Below, in pieces: positions 28,188 to 30,128 of a stretch of DNA of 50,358 bases (position 1 is its first letter; the number at the start of each line of letters is the position of its first letter). The position numbers were made by a program, and so were the translations under genes. The notes beneath the pieces are model-generated. The model ran no database searches and was not told the origin of the DNA. It worked only from the letters and a program-made list of their open reading frames with translations. Origin of the DNA: Candidatus Onthousia faecavium (GTDB lineage: Bacteria; Bacillota_I; Bacilli_A; RF39; UBA660); NCBI GenBank assembly GCA_018711135.1, contig DVIS01000006.1:1-50358 (forward strand), given 5' to 3'.

Positions 28188-28224
28188 GCTTAAGGAAATC
28201 ATAGCTTAGCTATAATTTCCTTAA
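28188..28224. repeat. Long inverted repeat downstream of the possible variable region
   Basis: Arms CTTAAGGAAAT (28188-28198) and ATTTCCTTAAG (28214-28224) are perfectly complementary. ATAGC and GCTAT extend the stem to a three-base loop with one mismatch. No T run follows on the minus strand, so it is not a normal terminator. It lies 38 bases after the stop of the surface protein gene. Confidence 0.85.
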
Positions 28225-28262
28225 GTTCGTTCAAGCCTCTATTCGTTTGACATAGTCCTTAC

Positions 28263-30128
28263 TCACCTAGTCGCACTCATCACGAGGCAAAACGAATTGT
28301 TACTGTGACCACTAGCAGTGTTACGATTAAAGCTGAAAATACCAGCATACGTAGCATTATCATAGTAACCGCCGCGCCCAAACCATGGATATGTAGCACT
28401 TATCATTGTCTGTCCATCACTATACCATCCTGCCGTTTCACTTAAACTGTGTCCAAAACACACATCACGATTACATGCTATATTTGCTGTACTACTTGCA
28501 TATTTATCATAGTATTTGGCATCTGGCATTGATGAGAATCCGGAACTACCTATTGTATCATTATAGTTACCCATTACATATTCCCAGGCTCCTCCTGACA
28601 TATCGTATACTCCATATATCGTTCCTGTTGTACTAGCTCCTACTCCTTTTCCTATCAAACCTGTCTCATCTCTTACATTATTGTCATATGTATATTGACA
28701 TCCATAATCTGTATTAGCATTACTTGGGCTTCCATAACTACATCCAGTTATATAACTATCTGATTTATTTTGATATATTTCTTTATCTGCACCCGTAAAA
28801 TTCTCATTTCCTAACTTGCCATATCTGCTTTGTGAAAGGTATGCTACCACTCCCCATTCACTGTTCTTCATCGCATGTGAGTTCATGCTTTCACTAAATC
28901 CATATCTATTTCCTGCTGCACTCACCTTTGTCGCTACTGTATGTATATTACTTACAGTTATACTTCGCCAACTCGTGACATTTGGTTTTATCATAGGATC
29001 TAAGCTTATTGTATTACCACCACCATCACTAGCATTTGGATCACTACTACTTGTCTCAAACTTTCCAACCCAGATTCCTGGTAATTCTTCTCCATCATAG
29101 GTAAATGCATCTGGTGTCCGATAGTTCTTTGGCGTCTCTGTTGCAAGATATTTAGCATTGCCTGTATCTTTCTCATCAACACCTATGAACTTAATATCTA
29201 TCTCACCTGGTCTTGTTGGTGATGGAGTTGTATCTAAATATATTCCTTTCTTACCATAGTAACTAGTTCCACCATTTTCACTACCAATTGTATAACTATA
29301 TCTTGGAATCCATACCCACATTGTTTCTATATCGTTCATATCTATTTCTGTTCCAACTGCTGCACTCTGGTATTCTGCTAACTTATCACTTTTTACGGTA
29401 ACAGCATTTGCCCATATTCCCATATCATAGTTATACCAATTATTAGCAGTATCTGTTTTTACCCAGTTATATCCATCATGTTTTACCGCTATCATATTAT
29501 TATCCATTACTGGAGCATTTACATTATCTGTTCCTTGTTCAAAATCAGCATCTGCTACTTGTTGTGACGCAAAAACTTTTAGTTGACCTAAAAATACTTT
29601 ACCCATAGATTCCGTAGTAGCATTTATATTAAGCCAAATCCTAAGTTCACAATCTACCTCTTCATCAGGATCTATTATTCCATAACTTAATATATATGAG
29701 TCAGATAATGTTCCTGTAAAAGTTCTATCTCCCATCTTTAGTTCATATCTAACATCTCTACTATCTAATAACTCACAGCTTCCTCCACTATCAGTTTTAC
29801 AAGCACTTATCGCTTCCTCATCATCTACAACACCTAAAGTATAATATAATGGTATTGTACTATTATTCCTTAATGTAAAAGTATATGGTTCACCTGCTTT
29901 ACCTTCATCATCATAAGTTGGTATAGTATTTACTAACTGTATTCCTTCATTAGTTTCATTTAAGACAAGCTCGATATCACCTACTACTATATTCATATCT
30001 TTATCACCATAAATAACTGTATATAACCAAGCATATGACAGTCCAATAATTATAGCAAATAAGACTATGTAAGAGGTAATAATCAAAATCTTCGTTCTTT
30101 TTCTTTTCTTTTTTTCCTTCTCTTTCAT
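28263..30128 (-). CDS. Surface protein with C-type-lectin/FGE-like C-terminus, possible DGR target
   Basis: 621 residues. One membrane span (about 13-36, ending LSYAWLY) is followed by a TasA-like module (GDIELVLNET, P-TYDDEG, YTFTLRNN) shared with the protein at 7231-7764. The C-terminal half resembles the formylglycine-generating-enzyme/C-type lectin fold: MWVWIPRYSY, IWVGKFETS, YGVYDMSGGAWEYVMGN. The last 40 residues (FGRGGYYDNATYAG, then IFSFNRNT, then FCLVMSATR) look like the variable region of DGR target proteins. Codons there (GGG CGC GGC, CTC GTG, GCG, AGG) are GC-rich and rare elsewhere in the window. No reverse transcriptase or template repeat is present here. AAGGGTG precedes the ATG. 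Confidence 0.8.
   Translation of the reverse strand: MKEKEKKKRKRTKILIITSYIVLFAIIIGLSYAWLYTVIYGDKDMNIVVGDIELVLNETNEGIQLVNTIPTYDDEGKAGEPYTFTLRNNSTIPLYYTLGVVDDEEAISACKTDSGGSCELLDSRDVRYELKMGDRTFTGTLSDSYILSYGIIDPDEEVDCELRIWLNINATTESMGKVFLGQLKVFASQQVADADFEQGTDNVNAPVMDNNMIAVKHDGYNWVKTDTANNWYNYDMGIWANAVTVKSDKLAEYQSAAVGTEIDMNDIETMWVWIPRYSYTIGSENGGTSYYGKKGIYLDTTPSPTRPGEIDIKFIGVDEKDTGNAKYLATETPKNYRTPDAFTYDGEELPGIWVGKFETSSSDPNASDGGGNTISLDPMIKPNVTSWRSITVSNIHTVATKVSAAGNRYGFSESMNSHAMKNSEWGVVAYLSQSRYGKLGNENFTGADKEIYQNKSDSYITGCSYGSPSNANTDYGCQYTYDNNVRDETGLIGKGVGASTTGTIYGVYDMSGGAWEYVMGNYNDTIGSSGFSSMPDAKYYDKYASSTANIACNRDVCFGHSLSETAGWYSDGQTMISATYPWFGRGGYYDNATYAGIFSFNRNTASGHSNNSFCLVMSATR

Follow-up and report, generated by a model that had tools for sequence, protein, structure and literature searches.

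The window, that is, the whole 50,358-nt stretch of Candidatus Onthousia faecavium DNA analysed here (contig C36), carries on its minus strand a surface-protein gene whose product ends in ...FGRGGYYDNATYAGIFSFNRNTASGHSNNSFCLVMSATR. A first-pass annotation had proposed that this C-terminus is the variable region (VR) of a remote target of a diversity-generating retroelement (DGR), copied from a template repeat (TR). The features of the gene and its 3' end are listed below.

28263–30128, minus strand: surface-protein gene (621 aa, membrane-anchored); ORF, member of the DGR target family with a putative FGE-like C-terminal domain
28296–28368, minus strand: VR core, 73 nt, homologous to the TR at 971 of contig C30, with 81% DNA identity to that TR unit
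28277–28295, minus strand: 3' anchor of the window VR, IMH-like, TCGTTTTGCCTCGTGATGA (TCGTTCCGCCTCGTGATGA in the TRs); from the locus pattern scan
28369–28380, minus strand: 5' anchor of the window VR, around the GCGCGGCGG block common to the TRs; from sequence and pattern scan
28253–28269, minus strand: decayed target-site hairpin, TAGGTGAGTAAGGACTA; from alignment with genome G022, hairpin scan and folding energy
28190–28224, minus strand: terminator-like inverted repeat 3' of the gene; read directly from the sequence

The GC content of positions 28263 to 28382 was 0.45, compared to 0.352 in the complete gene and 0.285 across the whole window, and this level was matched by 0.04% of the window's 120-nt stretches, in agreement with the annotation's remark that the gene end is GC rich within AT-rich DNA. 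The annotation had also described a C-type-lectin/FGE-like ending. The C-terminal position of the VR held, and the FGE-like fold was weakly supported: the match of the protein to Pfam FGE-sulfatase (E 0.018) was under the model's cut-off, weak matches to the same model were obtained for 18 of 20 members of the target family (best E 4e-4), and an AlphaFold model of the domain was too poor for use (pLDDT 31). Nine paralogs of the window gene were found in its own genome at E<1e-140, and the gene is 85 to 86% identical to the copies on contigs C54 and C9. A large family of paralogs that are 57 to 62% identical to the window protein occurs on contigs C51 (which carries four), C3, C24, and C45, and at the DNA level their C-termini have mostly lost their likeness to the TRs.

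Reverse transcriptase, Avd, and the template array

The genome was available as 55 contigs (92% complete). No reverse transcriptase (RT) lies in the window, as the annotation had stated; the three RVT_1 matches of the genome are on contigs C1, C30, and C20. Contig C30 carries, on one strand, a gene for a 354-aa RT with an avd gene just upstream, five TR-like units, and, at its end, a VR. The RT scored 65 bits against RVT_1 and contains an IGNYTSQ motif, and its best solved relative was 8ub7 (E 9.6e-48; called "Reverse transcriptase" by its depositors), which we take to be the Bordetella DGR RT. The Avd protein matched Pfam bAvd PF22296 with 77.3 bits (cut-off 40) and phrog_3206, "Avd protein of DGR," and fell 0.2 bits short of the cut-off of NCBIfam NF033474 DivGenRetAVD (79.8 versus 80). 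The window site is 78% identical to the VR and 81% identical to the TR of C30, and the second copy beside a DGR-type RT that the annotation anticipated is thus present in the same genome, with the bAvd gene adjoining the RT. At the C30 locus itself, 13 of the 26 A positions had changed between the TR and its VR, and all 47 non-A positions agreed. No relatives of the RT were found in viral contigs, so that there was no sign of a phage carrier.

Contig C9 carries ClpP, a uridine-kinase-like gene, one TR, and then the N-terminus of a target that is cut by the contig end. We rejected the idea that this TR is an orphan acting in trans, because the gene order of C9 is syntenic with that of the array locus in G009. 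Most likely, C9 and C30 are parts of a single locus with six TRs, of which C9 forms the upstream end. An AAA/DUF4143 ATPase gene lies within this array, separating the second coding unit from the third (C30, 5212–6540), and a C39-like peptidase gene lies 3' of the RT. A further VR, on contig C14 (5843–6073), is A biased relative to the C9 TR (15/25 versus 9/54), has no hairpin, and belongs to a gene that is cut off at the contig end.

Beyond the window genome, nine genomes of Candidatus Onthousia, a genus of gut Bacilli, had relatives of the RT with 77 to 81% identity; in one of the nine, G016, the RT gene is interrupted. By DNA search, TR units occurred in exactly 10 of the 35 genus genomes, all fragmented and mostly metagenome assembled, and these were the same ten that have the orthologous RT; the units were confined to the RT locus, plus the one on C9. 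A single RT serves each array, which comprises from 3 (G004 and G032) to 26 (G010) tandem TRs, with one of the 26 found only by DNA search; a partial contig of G028 shows 2. The units are spaced 310 to 400 nt apart as a rule, and each has its own structured 3' tail of approximately 165 nt with three predicted helices, which are common to the units and in which 10 of 21 pairs have changed on both sides. All of the coding TRs from the motif scan were open and in frame with the target and had inserts 73 to 91 nt long, and the sets of TRs differed strongly between species. The array-linked VRs are followed by a hairpin, TAGTCC-GTAA-GGACTA, which reads TAGCCC/GGGCTA in three genomes, where both sides have changed. 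In an outgroup locus (L151; RT identity, 55%) an ordinary VR and a single TR were found, which suggests that the array is derived.

Each of the seven intact array-linked VRs (L012, L083, L084, L087, L088, L090, and L091) matched one TR with 0 to 1 non-A mismatch (and, in L087, a 3-nt gap as well), while the next-best TRs differed from it by 8 or more non-A mismatches. The position of the matching TR within the array varied. For the seven gapless VR/TR pairs pooled (six array linked plus that of the sister species G022, described below), 86 of 185 A positions and 1 of 356 non-A positions had changed (P = 3e-46), with A replaced by G 62 times, by T 20 times, and by C 4 times. The changed codons were mostly AAY (56 of them), which cannot become a stop codon. 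Variation between genomes was concentrated in the same place: in a 5.7-kb alignment of G004 with G032 (99.5% identity), 15 of the 22 substitutions fall inside the 73-nt VR, compared to 7 in the other 5.6 kb.

These patterns are consistent with a mechanism in which a single RT and Avd use RNAs from the tandem array. Each TR unit would yield its own RNA, the chosen TR would be reverse transcribed with errors at A, and the cDNA copy would overwrite the 3'-terminal VR of the array-linked surface-protein gene, with the GC-rich anchor and the downstream hairpin marking the target site. The protein would then vary at two levels, through the template that is picked and through the residues that result from mutated A positions. 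We infer that the choice of TR is a regulated or selected switch.

The first array unit, TR0

In seven loci the first unit of the array, TR0, is A poor (9 to 18%), and all seven TR0s contain an in-frame stop codon, at differing positions. Its 3' homology to the VR is the longest of any unit in six of the seven loci (28 nt in five of them, compared to 20 nt or less for coding TRs), and its 5' homology is 17 to 19 nt in six loci and short in the genome of the window. The core ATTCTTTnTTGCTCTATT has been kept across diverged species. Copies of TR0 were found in the VRs of G009 (L086) and G011 (L089), that is, in two of the nine assembled VRs, and carried A changes at only 0/12 and 1/8 positions, respectively. 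Both truncate the target, the proteins ending in RGGGFLCN in G009 and RGGGCPLVV in G011. Since VR and TR0 have common flanks, TR0 might conceivably have been placed in the VR by misassembly; this is less likely for L089, where the copy differs from TR0 by one base and one indel, than for L086, where the two are identical.

TR0 also carries an inverted copy (approximately 30 to 44 nt) of the 3' untranslated region (UTR) of the target gene, which coding TRs as a rule lack. Compared to shuffled sequences, the TR0/3' UTR duplex had a z score of approximately -6 in three loci and of -1.9 to -3.5 in the others. With TR0 in the VR (the OFF state), the mRNA could end in a long hairpin. The 3' UTR stretch matched by TR0 lies in the 40 to 100 nt after the array-linked VRs; in L083, L086, L090, and others it is flanked by the VR hairpin on one side and by a strong, terminator-like inverted repeat on the other. 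In G004 and G032 the first unit is instead a coding one with a TR0-type tail, and the tail type of TR0 is that found in the single-TR outgroup L151. The coding first unit in these two genomes suggests that TR0 may derive from the ancestral template.

Taken together, these features suggest that TR0, which is the first unit in most arrays, may be an off switch that would silence the target. More specifically, we give an even chance to a system that combines cassette switching with hypermutation, in which the up to 26 templates include a dedicated null template that is nearly mutation proof and has longer homology arms, and in which the target, when rewritten from it, gains a stop codon, providing reversible OFF/ON phase variation by reverse transcription. 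Alternatively, TR0 is a decayed, functionless ancestral template, and its two copies in VRs are accidents or assembly errors. The outgroup-type tail and the short 5' homology in the window's own genome fit such a relic, which would hardly be expected to have the longest 3' homology to the VR, a core conserved across diverged species, an inverted copy of the target's 3' UTR, and copies in two of nine VRs; we regard decay as credible but doubtful.

The syntenic locus in a sister species and the status of the window copy

Compared to the best TR of its own genome, the window VR had changed at 8 of the 26 A positions and at 11 of the 47 others, without evident A bias, and no clean A-only fit was obtained against its own TRs or those of any relative. 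The left arm of the downstream hairpin is broken, which reduces the predicted folding energy to -3.8 kcal/mol, compared to -11.2 kcal/mol for an intact hairpin, and the anchor has two C-to-T changes. The change in the hairpin also creates the stop codon that follows SATR. The A-directed difference that the annotation had predicted was therefore not seen at the window copy. It was found instead at the syntenic locus of G022, a sister species, which is 92% identical over 9 kb and whose neighboring protein is 98.8% identical. The G022 VR differed from the TR of the window genome at 18 of the 26 A positions and at none of the 47 non-A positions (P = 2.8e-11), and its hairpin is intact (TAGTCC-GTAA-GGACTA). 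When the window gene is aligned with this ortholog, conservation over 80-nt stretches of the coding sequence is lowest at the VR (0.725). The TR array is not in the assemblies of G022, G021, or G023, although VR-like targets are present in them, and the donor for the G022 VR is thus unseen; synteny was established with the window's neighbor gene in G022, the loci of G021 and G023 having no neighbor gene for comparison.

We conclude from this comparison that the window locus is by descent one of the DGR targets and that its copy in the window has probably ceased to be one, since its VR is not A directed and its hairpin is broken while the G022 ortholog is clean. On the sequence evidence, the end of the window gene belongs to a gene family rewritten by a mutagenic RT with up to 26 alternative templates. 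Remote paralogs, the window locus included, would have been overwritten in trans for as long as they retained the hairpin. We assign a probability of roughly 0.8 to this reading, namely, that the window gene is a remote and probably retired target of the chromosomal multi-template DGR on C9/C30, which carries out mutagenic retrohoming with template choice. The first-pass annotation was largely right in its guess of a DGR, the remote target being correct in kind, with the machinery on another contig; the apparent retirement of this copy was not part of it, and the template array is not visible from the window.

Two other histories of the window copy were considered. It may still be an active remote target whose TR is missing from the incomplete assembly or was recently lost from the array. 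This would agree with the strong variation in TR sets between species and the six-TR size of the window genome's own array, as well as with the finding that TRs of other species fit the window VR about equally well (the unit at 11313 of L086 does so with 7 non-A mismatches plus gaps). However, the array-linked VRs and the G022 ortholog have unbroken hairpins, and in Bordetella phage BPP-1 the hairpin is required for efficient homing (Guo et al., PMC3240598), which, with the broken hairpin arm and altered anchor, makes continued activity unlikely. The other possibility is that the window gene is simply an old paralog, which received its VR when the gene was duplicated and has at no time been a target itself. 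The close identity to the C54 and C9 copies is compatible with duplication, but the clean A-only TR copy and intact hairpin of the syntenic G022 gene contradict it, unless the G022 VR arose by gene conversion from an array-linked VR, and the low conservation of the VR between orthologs speaks against it as well; we consider it very unlikely. The reading as a retired remote target is preferred to both.

Comparison with other systems and additional reverse transcriptases

In silent-cassette antigenic variation (pilin, vls, and VSG), a silent template library overwrites an expressed copy. Unlike these systems, copying in Onthousia appears to be A mutagenic and linked to an RT rather than plain gene conversion. 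It is extremely improbable that the array merely supplies silent cassettes for ordinary homologous recombination without reverse transcription, as its expressed and silent copies and the nearly unmutated TR0 copies might suggest, because RT and Avd are adjacent and co-occur with the TR units and the pooled substitutions call for copying that mutates A specifically.

Known DGRs are usually portrayed with a single A-mutated template and a VR scaffold that is fixed. The Onthousia scaffold itself appears to be exchangeable: its inserts range from 73 to 91 nt and its backbones differ, and such exchange would give access to a much larger repertoire. With the BPP-1 DGR the Onthousia system has in common the RT and Avd families, A-specific substitution, a GC-rich 3' anchor, a C-terminal VR, and a hairpin just 3' of the VR. 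It differs from BPP-1, which has a single TR and an mtd VR with IMH, in having many tandem TRs with their own tails and a putative null template, a hairpin with a 6-bp stem and GTAA loop, and chromosomal surface-protein paralogs as targets. Surface-protein targets at scattered genomic sites, among them remnants that lack core elements, are shared with the Treponema denticola DGR (PMC4891356), whose TR types differ between strains; the available portion of that paper reports no array, whereas Onthousia has many TRs at one locus. Targets and machinery at separate loci, with paralogous targets diversified in trans, are also known from Thiohalocapsa PB-PSB1 (PMC10907252), where there are several separate DGR loci as opposed to one template array.

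Elements that carry more than one TR are already on record, since the MetaCSST survey includes DGRs with two and with six unique TRs (PMC6642488, accessible sections), the six-TR example having few A changes. Those sections describe neither tandem units of approximately 310 to 400 nt, one-to-one VR switching between species, nor a null template, and we found no report of large template arrays or of DGR null templates or off switches in the open-access literature searched. The null template, if true, would be a DGR-based off switch. A natural library of dozens of putative TR RNAs with a common tail would be useful for testing what RT-Avd needs in TR RNA, and the Onthousia targets offer a natural experiment on the gain and retirement of remote targets.

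Additional RT genes were noted. In G016 the gene for the DGR RT is interrupted (its contig C1, 24854–27826; L091) by an insert that encodes a further RT, of 439 aa, and may be a group II intron. In the genome of the window, contig C1 (2131–3722) encodes a second DGR-like RT, 36% identical and with the IGNYTSQ motif, accompanied by a weak Avd-like ORF; no TR-like repeat was found near it within its 3.85-kb contig, and relatives of this RT are present in many genomes of the genus. The third RT, of 510 aa (contig C20, 5565–7097), resembles the antiviral Drt4/Drt3b proteins, with scores under the curated cut-offs.
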